A stretch of DNA of 64,000 bases from Crocinitomicaceae bacterium (lineage in GTDB: Bacteria > Bacteroidota > Bacteroidia > Flavobacteriales_D > Crocinitomicaceae), in assembly GCA_014762645.1 (NCBI GenBank), contig JABURP010000099.1, positions 1 to 64,000 on the forward strand, written 5' to 3'. Positions within the stretch are counted from its first letter, which is position 1, and every line of letters begins with the position of its first letter. This document shows positions 49,757 through 64,000 of this stretch, piece after piece. The notes under the pieces were generated by a model. That model searched no databases. It was not told the origin of the DNA and saw only the letters and a list, made by a program, of their open reading frames with translations. The position numbers and the translations under genes are program-made.

Positions 49757-51130
49757 GTGAAGTTTCAGAATCCGGAAGATACCATATGTGCATTAAGTAC
49801 TCCTCAGGGAATGGGGGCAATTGCTGTTATAAGACTATCAGGATCAGATACATTTAAAATTATTAACGAGGTTTTTTCCAGAGATATTACGGAAATACCT
49901 TCTCATAAAGTCATTTTTGGAACCATAAAAGATGGCGAAGAGATTATTGACGAAATAGTTCTTTCCATTTACCGAAACCCAAATAGTTTCACCGGAGAAG
50001 ATATTGCTGAAATTTCTTGCCATGGATCAACCTATATTCAGGAACGAATTCTCAACTTATTGATAAACAAAGGTGCACGCTTGGCTGGGCCGGGAGAGTT
50101 TTCATTAAGGGCATTTTTAAACGGTAAAATGGACCTGTCGCAAACGGAAGCCATAGCCGACCTGATCTCCTCACGTTCAAAAGCCGCTCATAAAGTAGCT
50201 ATGAACCAAATGCGGGGCGGATTTTCTCAGGAAATATCAGCATTGCGACAGGAACTACTGAATTTTGCTTCGCTCATTGAACTGGAATTGGATTTTTCTG
50301 AAGAAGATGTTGAATTCGCTGACAGAAAAGAGTTGACGGATCTGTTGGATAAAATTGATAAAAAAGTAAATAGCCTTGTGGCTTCATTTCAGTACGGAAA
50401 CGTGTTGAAAAGTGGTGTTCCGGTAGCCATTGTAGGCGCACCAAATGCAGGAAAATCAACCTTGTTGAATGCATTGTTGAATGAAGACCGGGCCATTGTG
50501 AGCGATATTGCTGGAACTACACGAGATACGGTAGAAGACACCATAGTTTTGGATGGAATTGAGTTCCGTTTTATAGATACAGCAGGAATTCGTGATACCA
50601 AAGACAGCATTGAAACAGAAGGAATTCGAAAAGCCTTTGAAAAAATCAAGAAGGCACGGATCATTCTTCTTTTGTTTGATCTGGAAGGGGTAAGAGATGA
50701 TGAAATCATTGAACAGATCAGTCTTTTTGAGAAGAAGAGCGTGCAGGAAGATCAGGAACTTATTTGTCTCTTTAACAAATCTGATAAGGTGAAAGTAGAC
50801 GATCGCGTTAACTTAAAAGATATTGGCTTGTTCATTTCCGCCAAGAAAGGGGAGGAGATAGATGATCTGAAGAAGATCCTGGTAAGCCGCGTCAAGAGCG
50901 TGAGTTCGTATGACGATACGGTTGTAACCAATGTTCGTCATCACGAAATCCTCAAAAAAGTGGCAGCTTCTATCCAAAAAGTCAAAGACGGTATGGATCA
51001 ACAAATCACTGGAGACCTGTTGGCCATGGATATTCGTGAAACCCTGAATTTACTGGGGGAAATCACCGGTGAAATCACCACAGATGATTTGTTAGGGAAT
51101 ATTTTTGCAAATTTTTGTATTGGAAAGTGA
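49757..51130 (+). CDS. mnmE: tRNA modification GTPase MnmE
   Basis: VGAPNAGKSTLLNALL, DIAGTTRDT, DTAGIRDT, C-terminal ..NIFANFCIGK; GTG start. Confidence 0.95.
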   Translation: MKFQNPEDTICALSTPQGMGAIAVIRLSGSDTFKIINEVFSRDITEIPSHKVIFGTIKDGEEIIDEIVLSIYRNPNSFTGEDIAEISCHGSTYIQERILNLLINKGARLAGPGEFSLRAFLNGKMDLSQTEAIADLISSRSKAAHKVAMNQMRGGFSQEISALRQELLNFASLIELELDFSEEDVEFADRKELTDLLDKIDKKVNSLVASFQYGNVLKSGVPVAIVGAPNAGKSTLLNALLNEDRAIVSDIAGTTRDTVEDTIVLDGIEFRFIDTAGIRDTKDSIETEGIRKAFEKIKKARIILLLFDLEGVRDDEIIEQISLFEKKSVQEDQELICLFNKSDKVKVDDRVNLKDIGLFISAKKGEEIDDLKKILVSRVKSVSSYDDTVVTNVRHHEILKKVAASIQKVKDGMDQQITGDLLAMDIRETLNLLGEITGEITTDDLLGNIFANFCIGK

Positions 51131-51199: not shown

Positions 51200-51367
51200 G
51201 TTGCCCGTTTGCACTTTTTTAGCTATATTTGTTGCTATAATGTTGCCCTTATTTGTTGCCTTTGTTTCTGGGCAACAGATTTTTAAGAAATGGCGAAATG
51301 TTGCTACATACAGCAACAAGCAGCAACAAGCAGCTACAAGAAGCAACAGAAAGCAACTTTAGGCTAC
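51200..51367. repeat. GTTGC/GCAAC pentamer array at element left end
   Basis: GTTGC at 51200, 51231, 51242, 51255, 51300; GCAAC at 51272, 51313, 51323, 51343, 51353; variant GCTAC at 51333 and 51363. Confidence 0.85.
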
Positions 51368-51369
51368 AA

Positions 51370-51729
51370 ATGAGCAGTAAGATTAGAATAGAGAAAACAT
51401 GTATGTTCTGCGGTGAGAAGTTCACCGCCAAAACAACTGTTACTAAATACTGCTCACATAAGTGCGCCAGTCGTGCATACAAGGTAAGAGCTAAAGAAGA
51501 TAAGATACAAAAGGCAACAGAACAGGAAACAGAAAATGAGATCCTGTTCAATCCCATTGTAAACAAGAAAGAGTTCCTGAGCATCAAGGAAGCCTGTATG
51601 CTTCTTGGTGCCAGTCGTTGGACAATTTATAGAATGATCGAGAAAGGACAGCTTCCTGCTGCTAAAATTGGCAGGAGAACCATCATACAGAAAGTAGATA
51701 TTGAAAACCTCTTTAATAAAGCATTATGA
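51370..51729 (+). CDS. Cys-motif plus excisionase-like HTH protein
   Basis: CMFCGEKFTAKTTVTKYCSHKC zinc-like motif; FLSIKEACMLLGASRWTIYRMIEKGQLPAAKIGRRTIIQKVDIENLF. ORF track start 51253 would include the repeat array; MSSKIR at 51370 preferred. Confidence 0.75.
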   Translation: MSSKIRIEKTCMFCGEKFTAKTTVTKYCSHKCASRAYKVRAKEDKIQKATEQETENEILFNPIVNKKEFLSIKEACMLLGASRWTIYRMIEKGQLPAAKIGRRTIIQKVDIENLFNKAL

Positions 51730-52832
51730 AAGTCACACTGAGAAAACGCAAGAAGGGAGATAAAATCAGTTTGTACCTGGACTATTACCGAAATGGACAG
51801 CGCAAGTATGAATATTTGAAATTATACCTCCACCCCGAACCTGAAAAGGGAAAGCTAACCACCAAACAGAAAGAGGAAAACAAACAGACATTGGCACTTG
51901 CTGAAAGCATCCGTTCCAAACGTCATTTGGAAGTACAGAACGGCATTTATGGTTTTCAGGATCAATCAAGGTTAAAGGGTAGTTTTCTTAGGTACGTTGA
52001 ACTATTGGCAGAAAAGCGTAAATCCAGTAAAGGCAACTACGATAATTGGGATAGTATGCATAAGCATCTGAAGAAATTTGCCAAGCGTGATGTTACTTTC
52101 GCAGAGATAGACAAGAGATGGTTAGAGGACTTCAAAGACTACCTAAAAAATGAGGCAAAGACTTCTGCCGAAAAAAACCTTTCTCAGAACACCTGCTACT
52201 CTTACTTCAATAAAGTTCGTGCTGCGCTCAAGCAGGCTTTAAAGGATGGTATTATCTCAAAGAACCCTGCTGAACAGGTTTCTACTTTCAAACAAGGTGA
52301 ACCCGAACGAGAATTTCTAACGCTTGAAGAACTGCAAGCTGCGGCAAAAGCAGAATGTGATATACCAATTCTAAAAAGAGCGTTTCTATTCAGTGCATTA
52401 ACCGGGTTACGTTGGTCAGATGTTCAAAAGCTACTCTGGTCAGAAATTCAACATTCAGATGAAATGGGCTGGTATATCCGTTTCCGACAACAGAAAACGA
52501 AAGGCGTTGAAACTTTGCCTATATCTGATCAGGCTCGTGATCTGTTAGGTGATGAAGGTCTGGCAGAAGAAAGAGTATTTAAAGGATTGAAGTACAGCTC
52601 TTGGCACAACATGAGATTACAACAATGGATGATGCGTGCCGGCATTTCCAAAACCATTACTTTCCATTGCGCCCGTCATACCTACGCCACTCTGCAACTT
52701 ACATTGGGCACAGATATATACACTGTTTCAAAATTGCTTGGACACCGAGAATTAAAGACTACTCAGATTTACGCTAAGATCATTGATGAGAAGAAGAAAG
52801 AAGCTGCTAACAAAATTCATTTAGACTTATGA
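51726..52832 (+). CDS. Tyrosine recombinase/integrase
   Basis: Core-binding SAM-like domain; LTGLRWSDVQKLLW (Arg I), FHCARHTYATL (HxxR), LLGHRELKTTQIYAKI (His/Tyr). Confidence 0.93.
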   Translation: MKVTLRKRKKGDKISLYLDYYRNGQRKYEYLKLYLHPEPEKGKLTTKQKEENKQTLALAESIRSKRHLEVQNGIYGFQDQSRLKGSFLRYVELLAEKRKSSKGNYDNWDSMHKHLKKFAKRDVTFAEIDKRWLEDFKDYLKNEAKTSAEKNLSQNTCYSYFNKVRAALKQALKDGIISKNPAEQVSTFKQGEPEREFLTLEELQAAAKAECDIPILKRAFLFSALTGLRWSDVQKLLWSEIQHSDEMGWYIRFRQQKTKGVETLPISDQARDLLGDEGLAEERVFKGLKYSSWHNMRLQQWMMRAGISKTITFHCARHTYATLQLTLGTDIYTVSKLLGHRELKTTQIYAKIIDEKKKEAANKIHLDL

Positions 52833-53845
52833 CAGATATAACTATATCATTAGATCAATTAATATATGGCAATCAAGCGCCCTGGAAAGAGGCCAATGCC
52901 ATTGACGAGAAGTTTGCCTCTGAAATCCACAAAATCCAGCAAAAGACACCTTCTTTTGAGTATAAATATGTAGTTAATTTTGAACGACCCTTTAATCACA
53001 AAACGAAATATTACGCCAAACTAATCACCAATGAAACTATCGCTACAATTACACAATTCCACGACATTATTTCGGCTGACGATAACGAAAAGATAAAGGC
53101 GTACTGGCTTGATAAATTGCTTGAAAAAAAGCTCAAAACGAGATTATCAGACATAGGTAAAATCATCAAGGAAAAGGATTACAGTTTAAGCTACATAAAT
53201 CCGAAACAAACGTCCATAGAATTGGATGAAATTCATAAATCTGACACCTATGTAATGCAGTTGCTCAAAGTGTCCTTAATGCATCTGTATTTAGAATTGC
53301 AAGAAGCGTTTAAGGAATCTATTTCCGACACCCTCATAATTAATGACTTCTATACTCAACTATTACGTGAACCTATCCCGGATACTGCTTACATATCAGA
53401 AATCAAAATTATCGAAATTGAACCTCAGCAAGAGCAAATTAGTACACCTCAACCTTCTCCTGTTGAAATCACCCTGCAGTCATTCATTTATAAGCAACTG
53501 GCCACAAATTCAGACAAACTTGCCGACCTGCATGACAGTCTGAAAAAGAACAACTTCATTGCCCAAGACACCACGCTGACCAATTTCAAAAAAGTATTTT
53601 CAGGCAAGGAGATTTCCACCCCCGTACATTGGACGGGCAACATAAGTGAGTTCTATTACTTCATTAAACTCATCTATACGGAACATGAATTGGTTGAGAA
53701 TCTAAAACAGAAGCAATGGGAAGTTGCTTGCAAGTGTTTTGTTCAGTCTGACGGGTCAGCGTTTGAACGCTCAAAACTTAGAAGCCTCAAGAGACCAAGT
53801 GCAACAGGAGACATACTTGATAAGGCTGTAGAACTGATTAAGTAA
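52829..53845 (+). CDS. Element-associated hypothetical protein
   Basis: 338 aa; overlaps the integrase stop by 4 nt; C-terminal FKKVFSGKEISTPVHWTGNISEFYYFIKLIY. Confidence 0.55.
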   Translation: MTDITISLDQLIYGNQAPWKEANAIDEKFASEIHKIQQKTPSFEYKYVVNFERPFNHKTKYYAKLITNETIATITQFHDIISADDNEKIKAYWLDKLLEKKLKTRLSDIGKIIKEKDYSLSYINPKQTSIELDEIHKSDTYVMQLLKVSLMHLYLELQEAFKESISDTLIINDFYTQLLREPIPDTAYISEIKIIEIEPQQEQISTPQPSPVEITLQSFIYKQLATNSDKLADLHDSLKKNNFIAQDTTLTNFKKVFSGKEISTPVHWTGNISEFYYFIKLIYTEHELVENLKQKQWEVACKCFVQSDGSAFERSKLRSLKRPSATGDILDKAVELIK

Positions 53846-53846
53846 T

Positions 53847-53971
53847 CCACTCTGCACTATACACCTTCTTCTTTTTTTAGGTTTTTCTTTTCCTATCATT
53901 TTCGCCATTCTGCAACTATCAAGTTTTTGAGGTGCCACTCTACACTCTGCACTCTACACTACACCCTTCTG
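53847..53971. repeat. CACTCTR short tandem/direct repeats
   Basis: CCACTCTGCACTATACACCTTCT (53847-53869) and CCACTCTACACTCTGCACTCTACACTACACCCTTCT (53935 onward). Confidence 0.7.
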
Positions 53972-54077
53972 TAACTCCCAAATAGCAGGCGTTTTCACCC
54001 CAAATTTGTACTGTCTTCGATAAACGGAGATGACTTTAGCGCTAAGGTCCATTTCATAATTAAAATTTGATTAAGTC

Positions 54078-54374
54078 ATGGACGAAATATTAAAACGTCT
54101 CGAAATAATTGAGAAGCATGTTTTGGATCAAAACATCATTCTCAAAAACGTACTGAACTTCAATGAAGCATGTCAGTACCTGGAACTATCACAGTCGCAC
54201 TTGTACAAACTAACAAGTACGGGAGCGATACCGCATTACAAACCTAACGGTAAGAAGATCTATTTCAACCGTCAGGAGCTGGACGAGTGGTTGCAACGCA
54301 ACCGCCAATCCTCTCAGGATGAAATAGAGCAGCAAGCTGCGGATTACATAATCAATAAAGGAAGGAGGTTTTGA
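54078..54374 (+). CDS. Helix-turn-helix (excisionase/MerR-type) DNA-binding protein
   Basis: LNFNEACQYLELSQSHLYKLTSTGAIPHYKPNGKKIYFNRQELDEWLQ. Confidence 0.85.
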   Translation: MDEILKRLEIIEKHVLDQNIILKNVLNFNEACQYLELSQSHLYKLTSTGAIPHYKPNGKKIYFNRQELDEWLQRNRQSSQDEIEQQAADYIINKGRRF

Positions 54375-54676
54375 TTATGAGAAATATTGTTATCACAGAA
54401 GAAGCCTATCAGGAAATTACGGAACGCCTCACAAGTATTGAGGTGTTCCTAAAGGCCAAGCAATCTGATGTTGAGAACGTATTTCTTGACAATCAGGAGT
54501 TCCTGCAGCTCATGTATATCAGTAAACGGACTGCGCAATCATGGAGAGACCAGGGTGTAATTGCCTACTCTCAGATTGGCGGAAAAATATACTACCGCAT
54601 GAGCGACATTCTCGAAATGCTCGACAAGCACAAAGTGCCTGCTGCGATCAATTCCAATAACCTTAAAAATGATTAG
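54371..54676 (+). CDS. Helix-turn-helix DNA-binding protein
   Basis: FLDNQEFLQLMYISKRTAQSWRDQGVIAYSQIGGKIYYRMSDILEML. Confidence 0.85.
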   Translation: MIMRNIVITEEAYQEITERLTSIEVFLKAKQSDVENVFLDNQEFLQLMYISKRTAQSWRDQGVIAYSQIGGKIYYRMSDILEMLDKHKVPAAINSNNLKND

Positions 54677-54678
54677 TA

Positions 54679-56883
54679 ATGGCTACAGCTACAGTATATA
54701 AAAACTTCACTCAGATTGTTGAGCACCGTTCCTTGCTCCTGATTACGAAAGACATTCAGGAAGGGAAATATCAGGGTGAAATTGAACAAATAAGAAGGTG
54801 CCTTGAAGATGGTAAGAAAGATGAAGCCGACAAACTCAAAAAACAACTCCCTGCGTTCACGGCATCCGGGAAGTTTGAAGGAGGTAGAACAGCAGAGATG
54901 CTCCAACAATACAGCGGTTTCATTATTCTTGACCTGGACAAACTGAACGAAAAGCAACTGGGAGATGCATTAAACATTGCACGTATAGCAGTCTACACCT
55001 TTTGTTGCTTCCGTTCTCCGAGTGGCAACGGTCTAAAAATTCTCGTTGAAGTTGATTCAGATGCAGAAAATCACGTAACTGCTTACAACCAGGTGGCAGA
55101 CTATTACGAACGTGCTTTGAACTTAGAAATAGACCGTTCCGGGAAAGACATACCACGCTTATGTTTCTTTTCATCAGATCCGGATTGTTACCGCAACATT
55201 CAGCATGAGAAATTCCATGTGCAGTTAGTACAGGAAGATCCCGAAATTGTGAAAGAACCCGAAAGCAATTGGTATGAAGTGTTTGAAAAGTGCATCACAT
55301 TTACAGAACAGAAAGCAGCTTACATTGAAGGTAACCGAAACAACTTTGTTTATCTACTTGCTTCCAACTGTAACCGTGCAGGAATGCCGGAAGACGTTGC
55401 AATTGATTTAATTGGGGGTAAATATGACCTCAACCATTCTGAAATTGAAACATCTGTCAAAAGCTCATATCAACATCATGTTCATGAGTTTGCAAATTTT
55501 GCTTCCGCAAAACCCTTGCAAACTGAGAACAATGAGCAGGACAATGAAGACTATCTACTCAATTCACCTGTGATACCTGATTTAGTTTACCAGGCACTTC
55601 CTGATGTTCTGAGAGAAGGAGCACACGGCTTTCCTGATGTACGGGAAAGGGATGTATTTCTCACTGGGGCAATTTGCATCCTTAGCGGATGCTTGCCCAA
55701 TGTTTCAGGAGTATATGCTCAACGCACGGTCTATCCAAATCTTTTCGGTTTTATTATAGCCCCTGCCGCCAGCGGCAAAGGTGCTTTATTATCTGCAAAG
55801 AATTTAGGAGATGTGTTTCACGATACCATGCGCAACAATTCTGATGAAGCACGAAAAGCGTATGAAGCCGAGTTGGAGCAATACAAACAGGCACAACGTG
55901 CAAAGAAAAAGGATAGTGATGAAACACCTGAACCACCGGAAGAACCTCCGTTTAACGTGTTGTATGTTCCAGCCAACACCAGTAACGCTAAAATTCTGTG
56001 GCACTTACAGCAGAATAATGGAAAGGGTGTGATATGCGAAACAGAAGCCGACACAATGGGTAACGTGTTCAAACAAGAATGGGGTTCATACTCTGATATG
56101 CTCCGAAAGGCTTTTCACCATGAGAAAATCTCATGCAGTAGAAAGACTAACAATGAGTTCATAGAAGTAAAAGAACCGCAACTTTCAGTTGCGTTATCTG
56201 GCACTCCTAATCAGGTAGGCAACCTGATAGGGTCAGCAGAAGACGGATTGTTCAGTCGTTTCCTGTTCTATGCTTTCAAAACTGAGCAGAAATGGCGTGA
56301 TGTTTCTCCGCTGGGCGGTGGCGTTAACCTCACTGAACTGTTTAACAGACTTTCGCAGAAAGTCTTTGAACTCACCAACTTCCTGGCACAGTCAAAAACG
56401 GATGTATTACTAACGTCCAACCAATGGCAACGAATCAATTCAACCTTTGAACTTTGGCTTACAGAGGTGGCAATCTTTACAGGTGATGAAGCCGGAAGTG
56501 TTGTTAAGCGTTTAGGGCTGATCCTGTATAGAACGTGCATGTTGTTTACCGCACTTCGTAAGCACGAAAATGGGGAGTTAACGGTGCAGGTAACCTGTAC
56601 GGATGAAGACTTTGAATCCGCATTGGCATTGGCAAACACCTATTTACAACACAGTTTGCTGATGTATAACAACCTGCCTAAGCAGGAAGATAAACAAGCG
56701 TTCAAAGGACGAGACAACAAACGTAAGTTCTTTGATGCACTACCTGATAGCTTCAAAAGATCAGAAGCTGTTGAGATAGGTGGTAGGTTTAAGCTATCTC
56801 CACGCAGCGTTGATGGCCTACTGAAGAAGTTGCAACCACAATATCTGATACCTGAAGAATACGGCCATTACAAGAAGGTATAA
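54679..56883 (+). CDS. VirE-N/BT4734-like plus DUF3987-like protein
   Basis: GFIILDLDKLNEKQLGDALNIAR, CFRSPSGNGLKILVEVD, IIAPAASGKGALLSA P-loop-like, large C-terminal DUF3987-like region. Confidence 0.8.
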   Translation: MATATVYKNFTQIVEHRSLLLITKDIQEGKYQGEIEQIRRCLEDGKKDEADKLKKQLPAFTASGKFEGGRTAEMLQQYSGFIILDLDKLNEKQLGDALNIARIAVYTFCCFRSPSGNGLKILVEVDSDAENHVTAYNQVADYYERALNLEIDRSGKDIPRLCFFSSDPDCYRNIQHEKFHVQLVQEDPEIVKEPESNWYEVFEKCITFTEQKAAYIEGNRNNFVYLLASNCNRAGMPEDVAIDLIGGKYDLNHSEIETSVKSSYQHHVHEFANFASAKPLQTENNEQDNEDYLLNSPVIPDLVYQALPDVLREGAHGFPDVRERDVFLTGAICILSGCLPNVSGVYAQRTVYPNLFGFIIAPAASGKGALLSAKNLGDVFHDTMRNNSDEARKAYEAELEQYKQAQRAKKKDSDETPEPPEEPPFNVLYVPANTSNAKILWHLQQNNGKGVICETEADTMGNVFKQEWGSYSDMLRKAFHHEKISCSRKTNNEFIEVKEPQLSVALSGTPNQVGNLIGSAEDGLFSRFLFYAFKTEQKWRDVSPLGGGVNLTELFNRLSQKVFELTNFLAQSKTDVLLTSNQWQRINSTFELWLTEVAIFTGDEAGSVVKRLGLILYRTCMLFTALRKHENGELTVQVTCTDEDFESALALANTYLQHSLLMYNNLPKQEDKQAFKGRDNKRKFFDALPDSFKRSEAVEIGGRFKLSPRSVDGLLKKLQPQYLIPEEYGHYKKV

Positions 56884-56892
56884 CCCCATCAA

Positions 56893-56920
56893 AAGCCCGC
56901 CAACATTAGCGGGCTTTCTT
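56893..56920 (+). terminator. Intrinsic terminator
   Basis: AAGCCCGC-caacatta-GCGGGCTT followed by TCTT. Confidence 0.85.
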
Positions 56921-56968
56921 CTGCTCGAATCTTTTCTTTTGTTTAATCCTTTTCTTCTTTTTCTTTCT

Positions 56969-56990
56969 TATATTTGTCAATTATTGACAA
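56969..56990 (+). promoter_or_regulatory. -7 box TATATTTG overlapped by perfect palindrome TTGTCAAT-T-ATTGACAA
   Basis: TATATTTG at 56969-56976; 17-bp palindrome at 56974-56990; XRE start codon at 57009. Confidence 0.75.
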
Positions 56991-57008
56991 GTCATAATTT
57001 GAAAGGTC

Positions 57009-57299
57009 ATGGAATTTGGTGAACAAATAAGAGAATTAAGAGAGAGCAAAGGTCTTCTTCAAAGACAGTTGGCAGCAAATCTTGAAATTGACACGCCACT
57101 ATTCAGCAAGATTGAAAGGGGTGAAAGAAAGGCAAGAAAAGAGCATGTAGAGAAGCTGAGCACCTTACTTGAAACTGATAAAGATCAACTCCTATCCTTA
57201 TGGCTGGCTGATCAAGTCATTGATTTATTAAAAGACGAGCCGCAAGCAAAGGAGGCATTAAAAATAGTACAACGAGAAATTAAGAAATATGGGCATTAA
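57009..57299 (+). CDS. XRE-family regulator of the R-M operon
   Basis: FGEQIRELRESKGLLQRQLAANLEIDTPLFSKIERGERKARKEHVEKLSTLL; overlaps hsdM by 11 nt. Confidence 0.88.
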   Translation: MEFGEQIRELRESKGLLQRQLAANLEIDTPLFSKIERGERKARKEHVEKLSTLLETDKDQLLSLWLADQVIDLLKDEPQAKEALKIVQREIKKYGH

Positions 57300-59358
57300 T
57301 ATTCTGAAATACGAATCAGACGTATGGCGAACAGCCGACTTGCTAATTGGGGCAGGTATCAAGCAAAGTGATTTTCCTAAATACATGATGCCCTACTTTG
57401 CGCTTCTCATGGTCGAGAGTAGGTTGATTAGAGAGGCTCAAAGATTGGAAGAAGAAGTAGGTAAAGACGACATGGAGGATTTTGTCGAAATGTTCCAGTT
57501 AGAAGGTTTAGGGTATAATGACTACCTCATCCGAAAAGGAAAATCCCTCAAGGACATCTGCAAAAACGACAAAACATTTGATGCTGATTTTCACCTCTAC
57601 CTAAAATCATTCGACCCTGAAACCAGATATTTATTAGGGGTTGATAAAGGCACGGAAGAAGAAAAGTTCCTGGACATAACAGGTATAAGTGGGCAGCTTA
57701 AAAAGAAAAGGATCCTATTCGAGACCGTACAAGCATGGAGCGAAATTGATCTTACGCCATTCAATAACTCCGAAATAACCACGCTTGAAGAACACATTAA
57801 AAGAAGATGGGCAGATATTTCAGCAGAAACAGCAGGAGAGCAGTATACACCAGACGACATTATTTCATTGATCTCCGAATTAATTGCTTCTAAAATTGAG
57901 GATAACGGCAAGTTCCTGACAATCTACGACCCTACTTGTGGCGGTGGTAACTTACTCTTTGGTGTAGAGGATAAAATCAAGGAAAGATTCAAAAGACCAA
58001 CAAAAACATACGGTGAAGATTGGAGTGACAGTCTTTACGCATTGGCAAAGATTGAAAGCCGTTTCAGAGCAGATTCTGAAATAAAATATGGGAACACACT
58101 AACCAACATTTCTTTCATTGAGAAACGCTTTGATATTGTAGTTGCCAACCCACCTTACGGTGTGGATTGGAAAGGTTATCAGAAAGACATCAAGAACGAC
58201 ACTACAGAGCGTTTTGTGGCACTCCCGTCCATTTCAGACGGGCAGTTTTTATTTACGCAACACATTCTTTACCATTTGGAAAATGACGGTCTTTCGGTTG
58301 TTGTTCATAATGGTTCCACCTTGTTTAGTGGTGATGCAGGTAGTGGTGAGAGTACCATCCGAAAACATTTCTTTGACAATGACTGGGTAGAAGCCATCAT
58401 TCAAATGCCTACGGATGAGTTTTTCAACACGGGTATCTACACTTACCTCTGGATTTTCAATAAGAACAAGCCTGCTGAAAGAGAGGATAAAGTAATCCTG
58501 ATAAATGCCAGTGAACTTTACGAACCTTTGAAGAAAAGCAAGGGTAAGAAGCGTAAGCAGATGAACCCGAACAACAGGGCTGAAATAGTTAAAGCCTTCA
58601 CCGAGTTCAAAGACAATGATTTCTGTAAAGTTTTTGACAAGTGGCAATTCTATTACAATCGTCAGAGCATAATGCTTACCAATTTGGATGAAAACGGGAA
58701 GCACATTGAAATGCCTGTTAAGGAGAACAAGGAAGGTGAAAAAGTAGAAGCCAAATCTATTAAACTAACCCCGCTAAAAATAAGTGTTGATTCAGATACT
58801 GATCCAATTGAAATAACTGAGTTTGAAATCACTGATTTTGACAAGGGCAAATTCAAAAACCTAAAAGAACGATTTGATGAGGAGTTAAAACCTATGATAG
58901 CAGCCCTGGATTACAAGGAGCAAAACTTGAAGGTAAAGGCTAAAAAAGCAGTGTACTGGTATGATAATGACAAGGACACGATCATTGAAGAAGTAGGCGG
59001 TAAACAAACGGAATTAGGTTGCGGAAAAATAGTCATCAAATCGTCATACAAGAAGCCAACTAAAACAAAAGGAGCATCAGTAGCAATTTCAGTCACACTA
59101 ACCAAAGACCTTCAAAAAGATTACGAGATAATACCTTATTCCCCTAATGAAGTTGAAAACCAACAATGGATTGCAGATTTTATGGCTAAGTACGTTACCA
59201 AGCCGTTTGAGTATTTAGATAATGTTGTTGGGGTGGAGATTAACTTCAACAAGGTGTTTTATCATCCTGAGAAACTGCGTGAAGTTTCAAGCATCAATTC
59301 AGATTTAGAAGCACTGGAGAACGATTTAACCAAATTAGAAAAGGAATTGGCTTTATGA
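57289..59358 (+). CDS. hsdM: Type I restriction-modification DNA methyltransferase subunit
   Basis: YTPDDIISLISELI, YDPTCGGGNLLFG (motif I), IVVANPPYGVDW (NPPY). Confidence 0.92.
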   Translation: MGINILKYESDVWRTADLLIGAGIKQSDFPKYMMPYFALLMVESRLIREAQRLEEEVGKDDMEDFVEMFQLEGLGYNDYLIRKGKSLKDICKNDKTFDADFHLYLKSFDPETRYLLGVDKGTEEEKFLDITGISGQLKKKRILFETVQAWSEIDLTPFNNSEITTLEEHIKRRWADISAETAGEQYTPDDIISLISELIASKIEDNGKFLTIYDPTCGGGNLLFGVEDKIKERFKRPTKTYGEDWSDSLYALAKIESRFRADSEIKYGNTLTNISFIEKRFDIVVANPPYGVDWKGYQKDIKNDTTERFVALPSISDGQFLFTQHILYHLENDGLSVVVHNGSTLFSGDAGSGESTIRKHFFDNDWVEAIIQMPTDEFFNTGIYTYLWIFNKNKPAEREDKVILINASELYEPLKKSKGKKRKQMNPNNRAEIVKAFTEFKDNDFCKVFDKWQFYYNRQSIMLTNLDENGKHIEMPVKENKEGEKVEAKSIKLTPLKISVDSDTDPIEITEFEITDFDKGKFKNLKERFDEELKPMIAALDYKEQNLKVKAKKAVYWYDNDKDTIIEEVGGKQTELGCGKIVIKSSYKKPTKTKGASVAISVTLTKDLQKDYEIIPYSPNEVENQQWIADFMAKYVTKPFEYLDNVVGVEINFNKVFYHPEKLREVSSINSDLEALENDLTKLEKELAL

Positions 59359-60698
59359 TGAAATACAAATCATATAAGGATTCCAAAATTGATTGGTTAG
59401 GAGATGTTCCAAATCACTGGACTAATCACAGAATAGACTGGATTGGCGAGCTTGTAAGAGGTAATACTGGGTTTAAGAAAGATGAATTATTAGAGAGCGG
59501 TGAATACGTTGCTTTACAGTATGGTAAAACTTACCAAGTAGATGAAGTGAACAATGACTTTCAGTACTATGTAAATAGTGAGTTTTATAAAAAAAATCAA
59601 GTTGTAAATCAGGGAGACACGATTTTAATATCAACGTCTGAGACTATAGAGGATTTAGGTCATTCGTGCTTTTATAATAAGGAAGAATTGGGATTATTAG
59701 GGGGTGAACAAATCCTCTTTAAACCCAATAGAAAGGTTCTTATAGGAAAGTATCTGTATTACTTTTCAAAGAAATTCAGCACTGAATTACAGAAGTATGC
59801 TACAGGTTTAAAGGTCTTCAGGTTCAACATTGATGACCTAAAACAGATATTTATTGCCATACCTCCTATTGAGGAACAAAAGGCAATTGCCGAATACCTT
59901 GACAACAAAAGCCAAGCGATTGACAAGAAAGTAAGTTTGTTAGAAAAAAAGATTGGCTACTATCAGGAGTTGCGTAAAAGTCTGATCAATGAAACGGTTT
60001 CAAAGGGACTGAATAAAAATGCCGAACTACACATCAACGAACTGGGTTTTGCAACTCCTAAAGAATGGCTCAGGTATCGGCTTAAAGATTTAGGCTCATT
60101 GTACAGTGGTCTTTCTGGTAAAAGTGGGGATGACTTTAACCAGGACGATAACCCGGATAATAAAGGCTTTATTCCATTCACCAACATTGCTAACAACACT
60201 TATTTGAAGCGAGACCATTTGGGCACGGTGGTAGTTTATGAGGGCGAAAAACAAAATCGGGTAAGAAAGGGAGATATTTTCTTCCTGATGAGTTCAGAGG
60301 GATATGAAGATATTGGCAAGTCAGCAGCCTTAGCGGAAGACATTGAGGAAACCTACCTGAATAGCTTTTGTAAGGGTTATAGGGTTAACTCTCGTAAAAC
60401 TAACCCTTACTTCCTGAACTACCTGATGTTATCAGACTACTACAGGCAGTTACTTATCGTTGAAGGCAAGGGTTTTACACGAATCAACCTGAAAATGGAG
60501 AAGGTTAATGACTTTTTTGTTTACATACCCGATTCATTTAAAGAACAAGAAGAAATAGTCAGTTTTCTTGACGCTAAACTGGACACCATTGCTAAGATCA
60601 TTGAAAACATGCAGAAACAAATCATTACACTGAAAGAACTCCGCAAAGCACTTATTAATGATGTGGTTACAGGCAAGATAAAAGTATTAAAAGATTAA
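59355..60698 (+). CDS. hsdS: Type I restriction specificity subunit
   Basis: Two target-recognition domains with conserved PPIEEQKAIAEYLDNK...LLEKKIGYYQELRKSLINE and KEQEEIVSFLDAKLDTI...LKELRKALINDVVTGKI. Confidence 0.92.
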   Translation: MMKYKSYKDSKIDWLGDVPNHWTNHRIDWIGELVRGNTGFKKDELLESGEYVALQYGKTYQVDEVNNDFQYYVNSEFYKKNQVVNQGDTILISTSETIEDLGHSCFYNKEELGLLGGEQILFKPNRKVLIGKYLYYFSKKFSTELQKYATGLKVFRFNIDDLKQIFIAIPPIEEQKAIAEYLDNKSQAIDKKVSLLEKKIGYYQELRKSLINETVSKGLNKNAELHINELGFATPKEWLRYRLKDLGSLYSGLSGKSGDDFNQDDNPDNKGFIPFTNIANNTYLKRDHLGTVVVYEGEKQNRVRKGDIFFLMSSEGYEDIGKSAALAEDIEETYLNSFCKGYRVNSRKTNPYFLNYLMLSDYYRQLLIVEGKGFTRINLKMEKVNDFFVYIPDSFKEQEEIVSFLDAKLDTIAKIIENMQKQIITLKELRKALINDVVTGKIKVLKD

Positions 60699-60699
60699 C

Positions 60700-63600
60700 A
60701 TGAAGGAATTAGACTTACAAGATAAATACCTCATCCACTTTCTTTGCGAAAGACCGGACGGCCTTTTGTACAAAGAGGCAAAAGCGAATACGGTTTCGCC
60801 AAATTTCTTCATCATTGAAGACTTAAAGCACTTCATCTCAGAGACGGATCTGAATAAGAGTAACTACAGAAAGCTGCTCAAAAAATTCGCAAGTGAAAAA
60901 GACCTGCTAAATGCCTTTACCAAATTCTTGGATGAAAAAATAAAGTCATCCATGAACATGGCTATTTTCATTAACACCAACAAATCTGTTACGTTTGAGG
61001 GTGTAAAACTGCATTTGTTTTATCCCAGTGGCAGTGAATTTGAAGAAGACAACCTGTTTGATCAAAATGTATTCTCAGTCGTTCAGGAACTGCCTTATAC
61101 GTTCCGCTTTGAAGGAAAACAGTATTTCTCATTCCGTCCGGACTTATCCTTCTTTCTTAATGGAATATTCTTGGGCTACAGTGAACTGAAAAGCAATTGG
61201 ACCAATCAAACAGCACAGAAGAACGGAAGAAAGAAAGTAAGTAAAGACTACCTAAATGCAGTCCAGGAGTATTTGACCATTGCTGATAAAAATGACCTAT
61301 CACAATCCATCCGCAAAGACTTCCTGAAAATATTTGAAAAGGCAATACACATCACTTCAACGGACATTTCCGACACTTATGTTATAAGGAATATTGCAAA
61401 CCAGTTTGACGAAATAAAAAACACAGTAGCCAGCGGTAGTTATGATTTTGAGCAATATGAAAAGAAAATATTAAAAGACTTCAAACCTTATCCATTAAGA
61501 AACAGGGAAGCCTCTAAAACAGAGCGATTTGAAGAAGTGTTTAAGGCTCTGTACGATAAGAAAATGATAGAGAAAGAAATCCTCTATTACAATTTCATTG
61601 AACGTGAGCTGATTAAAAAGGAAGGAAGCAAAACAAAAGAGTACAAGCATAATGATGGTAGGCTAATTGCCCCAAGACCCAAACAGAAATTTGGTACAGA
61701 TAAGGTGCTTTCTAAGATTGGTGAGTTTTTAGAGAACGAAAATGACCCGGACTACTTCATTAAGAAACTGGAAAGGGAGCTAAGAGCGAAAGGCATAGGT
61801 GAAAATCAAATAAAAGAACTGATTGCTAAGCGCCAGAAGTATCAAAACAACAAAACAGTTTACTCCCTACTTCTGCAATATGCAGCAGGTTTTGGTAAGA
61901 GTAATATCATAGGCTGGACTGCCTTACAACTCAAAGACCTTCGCAAAGACGGCCACTACGTCTATGATAAAGTGATGCTTGTTGTGGATAGATTGCAATT
62001 AAGAGATCAGTTAGATTCTAAGCTGCACAACATGAACATTCAAAAAGGGATGTTCATTGAGGCAACAGATAAGAAGTCCTTTATTTCTGCATTAAGTAGC
62101 GATAAAAGGATTGTTGTGGTTAATCTTCAAAAATTCACTTCTGTAAATAACATCTTAGATGAAGCAGTTGTGAAGAAGCTGTCAAAATTAAGAATAGCAT
62201 TCCTGATAGATGAGATTCACAGAAGTAACAGTGGAGTTCAGCATGAAGAAATGGTAAGTGTCTTTGATGAACTACAAAGCAGTTTCGATCAAAGCAAAGA
62301 ATATCAGAAGCAGCACACTAAAAAGAACTTAATTGTCGGTTTCACCGCTACACCAAGCGACCATACATTGGCCCGCTTTGGTGAGTTCAATAAATATGCT
62401 GAATCCGAAAAAATCTGGATTCCATTTGATAGCTACACTATGCGTGAAGCTATTCAAGACGGATATATATTAAACCCGATTAAGGGCATAGTTCCTGTCT
62501 CCGCTAAAATGTTCTTTGAAGTGCCTGATAATGAACTGGAAGGCTTTGAAGGCGATAAGGGCTATGGATTTGAAGAAATACCGGACGATACGGACACAGG
62601 TATTGATGAAGCAGGAAAGAAATACGCTATTCGTAAAAAGAGAATCTATCTTAATACAGAACGAATTGAAGCCATATCAAAATTCGTTGTTGAACGCTTA
62701 CTGTCTTCTGTGTATCACAATATAAGAGGCACAGCAAAAGCAATGCTGGCAGTTTCATCTATTCCGGCAGCGATTAAGTATAAGGGCTTTATTGATAAGT
62801 ATTATGCAGAACTAACAGCCCAAAAGAAATATGAACGTTTTGCGGATGCTCCTATTTACATTGTGTATTCGGATAGTCAAGAATATAGAAGCGCAAGCGG
62901 CCTGAATGGTGGATTAAATGAGGAAAAAGTTCTGCAAAATTTCGCTATCAAGAAGAACGGCTTAATCATAGTGGTTGACAAATTGCAAACCGGATTTGAT
63001 GAACCCAAACTTCACACCCTGTTCTTAGATAAGGAAATAAGAGGCATCAACGCTATTCAAACCATTTCCAGAGTAAACAGAACTACCAAGTACAAGAACG
63101 ATTGTAAAATAATTGACTTCTCATACAAGAACGTCAATGTTAAGAATATCAAAGCAGCTTTCGAGCACTTCAGTAACGTTGTGGTTTCAGATTTTGACCC
63201 ATTAGGTGATGAAGACAAGTTGATCGATCTGTACAAGGAATTAAATGGACACTCATTATTTAAGAAGCATTTCCCTGCATTTAAAACCTTTCACACTACC
63301 AACCCTGATATTGCCTTAATAAGAGAAATTGAGGATGGATTAGACCATTATATAAGGGCATCAAAAGAGGAATCAAAGAAGCTCAAGGAGAAAGTATTAG
63401 GGTACTTCAAAATTCTCAACCTTATTGAGTTTGTAATTGAATTAGACCCTAAATACAGTGAAAAATTGCTGTTGGAGTTTTGGCGTAAATACAATATGCT
63501 GTATAACCAAATCAACAAGCAGGATGAAATAATTGATGATGTAGAAATCTACTTTGACAATCGCATTGGAATTGTGGCACCGGCTGAGCCAAAGGAAAAA

Positions 63601-64000
63601 GGCAAGAGAACAAAGAACGATAAACCAACAGATCCCAATAAGCCAAATAAATACAAATACAACATTCTCAAAGTCATTGAGAAGCGTAACCAGGAAGAAG
63701 AAGCCATTGCCGAACTGATTGCTGATTTTGAAGGGAAAATCACTTCTCTGTTTGAATTTATCAAGTCAGACGATACAGGCCAGCGTTTAATTGCAAAAAT
63801 CAATGATGACGGCTCTGCTTTTTCTCAGGATGAGATTTATTCTGACTTTTCCAAACTCTACAGAAAATACACCATTCGTCATAAGAACTTAGGCGATTTC
63901 TTCCTGCGAGAAACAAAAGACAATCTCAATCAATTATGTGATGACTTTGAAAGAACGCTTCAATCAAATAGCAATGCCAGCATAATAACAGAGTATGCTG
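60700..64000 (+). CDS. hsdR: Type I restriction endonuclease subunit R (3'-truncated by window)
   Basis: Open from ATG at 60700 to the window end. FRPDLSFFLNGIFLGYSELK (PD-ExK), QYAAGFGKSN (Walker A), AFLIDEIHRS (DEIH), VGFTATPS, IQTISRVNRT. Confidence 0.9.
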   Translation, partial: MKELDLQDKYLIHFLCERPDGLLYKEAKANTVSPNFFIIEDLKHFISETDLNKSNYRKLLKKFASEKDLLNAFTKFLDEKIKSSMNMAIFINTNKSVTFEGVKLHLFYPSGSEFEEDNLFDQNVFSVVQELPYTFRFEGKQYFSFRPDLSFFLNGIFLGYSELKSNWTNQTAQKNGRKKVSKDYLNAVQEYLTIADKNDLSQSIRKDFLKIFEKAIHITSTDISDTYVIRNIANQFDEIKNTVASGSYDFEQYEKKILKDFKPYPLRNREASKTERFEEVFKALYDKKMIEKEILYYNFIERELIKKEGSKTKEYKHNDGRLIAPRPKQKFGTDKVLSKIGEFLENENDPDYFIKKLERELRAKGIGENQIKELIAKRQKYQNNKTVYSLLLQYAAGFGKSNIIGWTALQLKDLRKDGHYVYDKVMLVVDRLQLRDQLDSKLHNMNIQKGMFIEATDKKSFISALSSDKRIVVVNLQKFTSVNNILDEAVVKKLSKLRIAFLIDEIHRSNSGVQHEEMVSVFDELQSSFDQSKEYQKQHTKKNLIVGFTATPSDHTLARFGEFNKYAESEKIWIPFDSYTMREAIQDGYILNPIKGIVPVSAKMFFEVPDNELEGFEGDKGYGFEEIPDDTDTGIDEAGKKYAIRKKRIYLNTERIEAISKFVVERLLSSVYHNIRGTAKAMLAVSSIPAAIKYKGFIDKYYAELTAQKKYERFADAPIYIVYSDSQEYRSASGLNGGLNEEKVLQNFAIKKNGLIIVVDKLQTGFDEPKLHTLFLDKEIRGINAIQTISRVNRTTKYKNDCKIIDFSYKNVNVKNIKAAFEHFSNVVVSDFDPLGDEDKLIDLYKELNGHSLFKKHFPAFKTFHTTNPDIALIREIEDGLDHYIRASKEESKKLKEKVLGYFKILNLIEFVIELDPKYSEKLLLEFWRKYNMLYNQINKQDEIIDDVEIYFDNRIGIVAPAEPKEKGKRTKNDKPTDPNKPNKYKYNILKVIEKRNQEEEAIAELIADFEGKITSLFEFIKSDDTGQRLIAKINDDGSAFSQDEIYSDFSKLYRKYTIRHKNLGDFFLRETKDNLNQLCDDFERTLQSNSNASIITEYA

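Follow-up and report, generated by a model that had tools for sequence, protein, structure and literature searches.

Probable integrase and excisionase site arrays in the left attachment arm of an mnmE-targeting integrative element from a Crocinitomicaceae bacterium

Introduction

The directionality factors (RDFs) of tyrosine integrases bind tandem repeats placed one turn apart, head to tail and cooperatively, and they bend DNA (PMC7498355). Lambda Xis contacts Int and also bends an arm, which allows Int to bridge (PMC4880445). Lambda Xis, Apl of phage 186, Pukovnik Xis, and P2 Cox are all small winged helix-turn-helix (HTH) proteins encoded beside a tyrosine integrase; near the att core, they have direct repeats spaced by one helical turn (PMC7498355). 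The mechanism itself, with its head-to-tail filament, bending, excision, and autoregulation, is already known for lambda Xis, Apl, and Pukovnik Xis. RdfS of ICEMlSym R7A, which belongs to the HTH_17 group, forms filaments and binds both its own promoter and the att site (PMC11963761). Known directionality factors have been described as loosely specific, and RdfS as having sites without a consensus motif (PMC7498355, PMC11963761).

The gene mnmE is also a known target for integration. Salmonella genomic island 1 (SGI1), which has both int and xis (PMC8409611), integrates into the last 18 bp of thdF/trmE/mnmE and is flanked by 18-bp direct repeats (PMC2297512). Its integrase has been placed in the IntCTnDOT subgroup, and elements of the CTnDOT/NBU1 group, from Bacteroidota, have a tyrosine integrase with an arm-binding domain and subterminal arm sites (PMC8138268).

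Here, we describe a locus in a 64,000-nucleotide stretch of DNA from a Crocinitomicaceae bacterium (the window, taken as a whole). It is very probably the left arm of the attachment site (attL side) in an integrative element that targets mnmE; GTTGC[CT] pentamers would be integrase arm-type sites and seven decamers the array of the adjacent excisionase. The gene pair, the one-turn repeats, and the subterminal arm sites recall the systems above, and the excisionase belongs to the same HTH_17 group as RdfS. There are also differences. Unlike the arrays of lambda Xis, Apl, Pukovnik Xis, and P2 Cox, those of this family have five to seven near-identical 10-bp units that covary strictly with a recognition residue, and the array in the window has a clear repeated unit where RdfS sites have none. 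The protein carries an N-terminal CxxC...CxxxC part that lies outside the coverage of the matched solved RDF structures. The array sits on the integrase-proximal arm, whereas the X sites of lambda belong to the P arm, in attR (PMC4880445). The CTnDOT/NBU1 group does not share the mnmE target, and SGI1, likened here by target site, direct repeats, integrase subgroup, and gene content, is a mobilizable island of Gammaproteobacteria in which xis lies downstream of int. The open-access literature searched, including that on the CTnDOT/NBU1 group, yielded neither the array–Xis arrangement nor any account of this family of islands at mnmE or of a recognition rule for RDFs; as evidence of novelty, this is weak. 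The new part is the residue-to-base covariation, together with the exchangeable cassette that we propose from it.

Results

The preliminary description of this left end had counted five GTTGC and five GCAAC pentamers, and every one is present: GTTGC at 51200, 51231, 51242, 51255, and 51300, and GCAAC at 51272, 51313, 51323, 51343, and 51353. GCTAC occurs at 51303, 51333, and 51363. The exact 10-bp spacing of the phased run also held, but the run has seven units rather than the six first counted, with the first unit (GCTACATACA) at 51303 and the end of the array 2 bp upstream of the xis ATG (Table 1). Within 240 bp, there are 13 GCWAC/GTWGC pentamers, compared with a mean of 0.59 and a maximum of 4 in 2000 simulated Markov sequences of window composition; the richest 170-bp stretch elsewhere in the window has 4, versus 12 in the cluster. 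Across the 4.23-Mb genome, a triple of GCWAC at exact 10-bp spacing is found in the array only, and the reversed control pattern of this triple had zero matches. The density of pentamers and their exact spacing are far beyond chance. A coding origin of the repeats was ruled out because their 10-bp period is not a multiple of 3. The GTTGC at 51300 is probably not a separate site, since it shares bases with the first decamer and relatives do not conserve it.

Table 1. Features of the mnmE-proximal end of the element and of its probable right end (window positions, unless a contig is named).
Feature	Position	Strand	Remarks
mnmE (tRNA modification GTPase)	49757-51130	+	Host gene, 3' end = attachment site; single best match to relatives' mnmE
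attL core TTTTGTATTGGAAAGTGA	51113-51130	+	mnmE 3' end; 18-bp repeat
Four probable integrase arm-type sites GTTGC[CT]	51200-51204, 51231-51235, 51242-51246, 51255-51259	+	Recurrent offsets
Probable xis-int promoter	51201-51231	+	TTG (51201-51203), 20 bp, TATATTTG (51224-51231); overlaps arm sites 1 and 2
Putative inverted arm-type site GCAAC	51272-51276	-	Recurrent offset
Conserved lead-in GGCGAAATGTT	51292-51302	+	Directly 5' of array
Decamer array, seven head-to-tail 10-bp units GC[AT]AC+N5	51303-51367	+	Probable excisionase binding array
Xis/RDF, 119 aa	51370-51729	+	N-terminal CxxC...CxxxC zinc-ribbon-like part; C-terminal winged HTH, recognition helix 83-92
Tyrosine integrase, 368 aa, with arm-binding domain	51726-52832	+	Arm-DNA-bind_5, Phage_int_SAM_5, Phage_integrase
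Element body	52829-64000	+	DUF6617 gene, two HTH_17 genes, DUF3987/BT4734-N primase-like gene, HTH gene, type I R-M genes (Pfam, PADLOC)
Probable right end of the element (L249)	C115:1271-2778		SNase gene, opposite-strand gene, GTTGCC, core repeat; syntenic with Flavobacterium soyangense element

The attachment site lies in mnmE, whose product ends ...FCIGK with the stop codon at 51128-51130; the mnmE of the closest relative is 74% identical. In four relatives, an 18-bp repeat of the mnmE 3' end (TTYTGYATCGGRAAGTAA, with one end finishing AAATAA) flanks elements of 24.7 kb (L018), 17.6 kb (L015), 17.8 kb (L020), and 40.5 kb (L010). The right core copy was not found on the window's own contig (C18), which stops at 68889. 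A search among contig starts of the same genome found a copy, TATTGTATTGGAAAGTAA, at C115:2761-2778, so that a core direct repeat is present at both ends in the four relatives and, with C115, probably in the window's element. GTTGCC lies 45 bp inside this copy, as in L018 and L020. Immediately interior to the copy are an SNase gene and a gene on the opposite strand, both of which match right-end genes of the L020 element from Flavobacterium soyangense at 46-48% identity. Taken together, the GTTGCC, the core copy, and the gene matches make it likely that C115, a separate contig not joined to C18, carries the right end of this element. For the host flank of C115, a search against G003 (mnmE locus and downstream, 15 kb) gave no match. 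In the closest relative, G001, of the same genus, mnmE is occupied by a different Xis-Int element, with GTTAC arm repeats instead of GTTGC and with GANAC decamers (L257:100-2700). Just inside attR in three relatives' elements (L259, L261, and L262), there is a long conserved protein ending ...SVTVA.

The 119-aa protein encoded 3' of the cluster, 257 bp from the core, falls in the excisionase family: it scores 47.1 bits against TIGR01764 (cut-off 28.8) and 49.6 against the Pfam family HTH_17 (cut-off 27), both above the curated cut-off, and it matches the excisionase PHROG 66 at 2.4e-11. Its sole PDB profile match is Pukovnik Xis (4j2n, E 1.6e-4). In the AlphaFold2 model (mean pLDDT 84.9), the N-terminal part is zinc-ribbon-like and includes a long helix, and a winged HTH follows it. 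The closest folds by Foldseek were Pukovnik Xis, RdfS, BldC, and P2 Cox, with probability 1.00 and E-values (0.02-0.06) that are weak because the domain is small. The predicted fold thus resembles that of solved RDFs, with Pukovnik Xis and RdfS as top matches (E about 0.02) and a TM score of 0.82 by target length for Pukovnik Xis. The gene stands near the att site and beside that of the tyrosine integrase, which it overlaps by 4 bp in a two-gene operon.

The family was sampled from 1314 genomes and one contig scan. About 40 related integrase loci at mnmE 3' ends, across Bacteroidota, share the layout. Searches of viral, phage, and plasmid sequences returned distant integrases only. A representative set of 25 elements, all carrying xis, was drawn up. 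Absence of the array from related elements, the objection that the preliminary description had foreseen, did not materialize: the layout was found in all 25, with the array in its place and the 10-bp period kept almost throughout. The array starts at +178/179 or +185 to +190 from the core in 23 of these elements, two classes that differ by about one helical turn, and at +167 and +202 in the remaining two; the decamers run toward the xis start codon. In most relatives, a lead-in of the form G[CA]GA[AG]AT.[AT]T precedes the first unit. The one-turn spacing of the putative sites, seen in the seven units of the window, extends to 28 distinct relatives, where mean identity at lags of 10, 20, and 30 was 0.42, 0.43, and 0.36, compared with 0.22-0.30 at other lags. 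In two elements (L120 and L121), the array is intact and int has in-frame stop codons near its start (TAA, TAG), which suggests that they were recently disabled.

The GTTGC[CT] pentamers have a spacing of their own. In the window, they lie at +87, +118, +129, and +142 from the core, with the inverted copy at +159. Offsets of +85 to +87, +116 to +118, +127 to +129, and +140 to +150 recur in most of the 25 representatives with any xis type, and an inverted GCAAC recurs at +157 to +159 in 14 and at +165 in one more. A matching array at the right end, for which the preliminary description had suggested looking, exists for one motif only. Among the five right ends read, one or two GTTGC[CT] sites recur (GTTGCC at -45 in three of the five elements, with others at -77/-66 or -67), but decamers are absent from all five. 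With arm-type repeats apparently on both sides of the core and a fixed spacing in relatives, we read the GTTGC[CT] pentamers, by their layout, as probable arm-type sites of the tyrosine integrase. The first two overlap a pair of motifs at 51201-51231 that we take to be a promoter of the Bacteroidota -33/-7 type. The pattern TTG-N20/21-TAnnTTTG is present at the matching offset in 16 of the 25 representatives, and TAnnTTTG is retained in some elements without the GTTGC of site 2 (L124, L126, and L128).

Elements without xis between the core and int provide a natural counterpart. A GNNAC decamer array was not found in three of them (L129, L092, and L017); the lag-10 signal in L017 (p 0.02) is apparently due to its own arm repeats. 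L122, where xis does not adjoin int, retains a few GCTAC units. Downstream of int, both L129 and L122 contain additional HTH_17-like frames and may thus still encode an excisionase. At mnmE, elements without an adjacent xis have other arm repeats, GGGCACAA / TTTGTGCC and TTTGTGTTA (L017:8860-9060, L092:1311-1500), and from these the arm specificity of the integrase appears to drift as well.

The sequence of the decamers differs among elements, with units of GCWAC (the window and others), GCACC, GATAC with a first GTTAC, GTCAC/GGCAC, and G[AG]CAG. These variants track one residue of Xis: W84 goes with GCNNC, M84 with G[AT]TAC, and R84 with GNCA. The three array states match residue 84 in 25 of 25 representatives, with a normalised mutual information of 1.0 and a next best column at 0.64 among 487 Xis and Int columns. 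As the states had been defined after inspection of the data, a class-free test was added, in which residue 84 was again the best of the 487 columns at predicting array base 2 (0.78; runner-up 0.55) and base 3 (0.71; runner-up 0.41). Beyond the model set (Int 44-50%), R84 accompanies GNCAC in L104, L107, and L108, and M84 accompanies GTTAC in L110; L102 (R84) has a mixed array, and no array stands out in L105. In distant elements, T84 or S84 is found with GAAAC and GANAC. A relation between residue 83 and array base 5, perfect in the 25 elements, failed out of sample. The AlphaFold2 model places residue 84 second in the recognition helix. The pairing of arginine with C3, and hence with a G on the complementary strand, agrees with the usual Arg-G contacts. 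In the MerR family, recognition-helix residues 1, 2, and 6 point toward the bases, and the strongest correlation with operator bases is that of residue 2 (PMC5045206).

Joint switches of residue 84 and the array number three on the Xis tree and six on the Int tree. Given these six switches, the array appears to follow the excisionase, not the integrase. For example, the sister integrases of L011 and L012 are 83% identical, yet their arrays differ and their Xis proteins are only 50% identical. Sign tests on independent pairs had only 2-3 pairs, too few for significance. Partial Mantel tests gave r 0.32 (p 0.0006) for array and Xis given Int and r 0.29 (p 0.004) for array and Int given Xis, and alone they do not separate Xis from Int as the partner of the array.

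Discussion

The preliminary description had treated the cluster as a single array with three candidate readings: arm sites, Xis/RDF sites, or iterons. The comparisons instead point to two arrays. An arm-type reading suits the GTTGC[CT] sites, with their fixed spacing and presence at both ends, and does not suit the 10-bp-phased decamers. A Xis/RDF-like reading suits the decamers, which the right end lacks and which covary with the recognition helix, and does not suit the GTTGC[CT] sites. From this covariation, we infer that the decamers are bound by Xis.

A quite unlikely alternative is that the decamers are an autoregulatory operator of the xis-int operon and nothing else, with no role in recombination. 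Their position, downstream of the probable promoter and upstream of the xis start codon, would fit an operator, and Apl and RdfS also act as regulators (PMC7498355, PMC11963761); however, the distance to the core is kept in helical-turn steps, which would be needless for an operator alone, and the protein belongs to an excisionase family.

It is very improbable that all of the pentamers, including those of the decamers, are integrase arm-type sites. GCAAC is the reverse complement of GTTGC, the decamer pentamer of the window, GC[AT]AC, resembles the inverted arm site, Int has an arm-binding domain, and some residual correlation links the array to Int. In the relatives, however, the decamers turn to GATAC, GTCAC, GACAG, or GCACC, and the arm sites remain GTTGC[CT]. 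Integrase arm domains that are 79% identical go with different arrays (L011/L012, L083/window), and GTTGCC is present at attR without decamers. Any reading with one protein for all sites was rejected because the decamer letters vary while GTTGC[CT] is constant. Replication iterons for an initiator of an excised, replicating form, which the short repeated sites near the element end and the primase-like DUF3987 gene might bring to mind, are hardly credible, as classical iterons have longer units about two turns apart, the protein adjoining this array is of the excisionase family, no initiator was found next to the array, and the array is tied to the att core by a fixed distance and to the Xis helix by covariation.

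With the decamers read as excisionase sites and GTTGC[CT] as arm-type sites, a course of events can be proposed for this element by analogy with the described factors. One Xis protomer would bind per decamer, all on the same face of the helix, and five to seven protomers would form a short head-to-tail filament along the left arm. The filament would bend the arm so that integrase could bridge arm and core sites, and the bridging integrase could then synapse attL with attR, leading to excision. The array lies in the probable xis-int leader, and the promoter overlaps arm sites; from these positions, both Xis and Int probably damp their own operon. Filament formation, bending, direction control, and autoregulation are all inferred at this locus.

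Xis and its array may form an exchangeable specificity cassette, although we propose this only tentatively. Residue 2 of the helix (W, M, or R) would set the array bases, and exchange of the cassette among integrase backbones would let islands with a common mnmE site keep orthogonal directionality control. Matched pairs of protein and array with a readable residue-to-base rule make the specificity of an excisionase filament testable by a swap of one residue or one array. The fixed layout also provides a simple finder for this family of mnmE-targeting islands, at least one member of which carries defence genes.

That member is the element of the window, which continues past position 64,000 with HsdR, a PDC-S18 nuclease, and a PIWI Argonaute to the contig end at 68889. 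The prokaryotic Argonaute, with a PIWI domain, is encoded at L002:5726-7834 (about 65726-67834 of C18; PADLOC pAgo, 880 bits). Upstream of it is a PDC-S18 nuclease-like protein with DUF5655, and both are downstream of the type I R-M set. By their annotation, the Argonaute, nuclease-like, and type I R-M genes are a defence cargo of the element. Two more HTH_17 genes stand in tandem at 54078-54676, 5' of the DUF3987 primase-like gene, and one of them matches TIGR01764.
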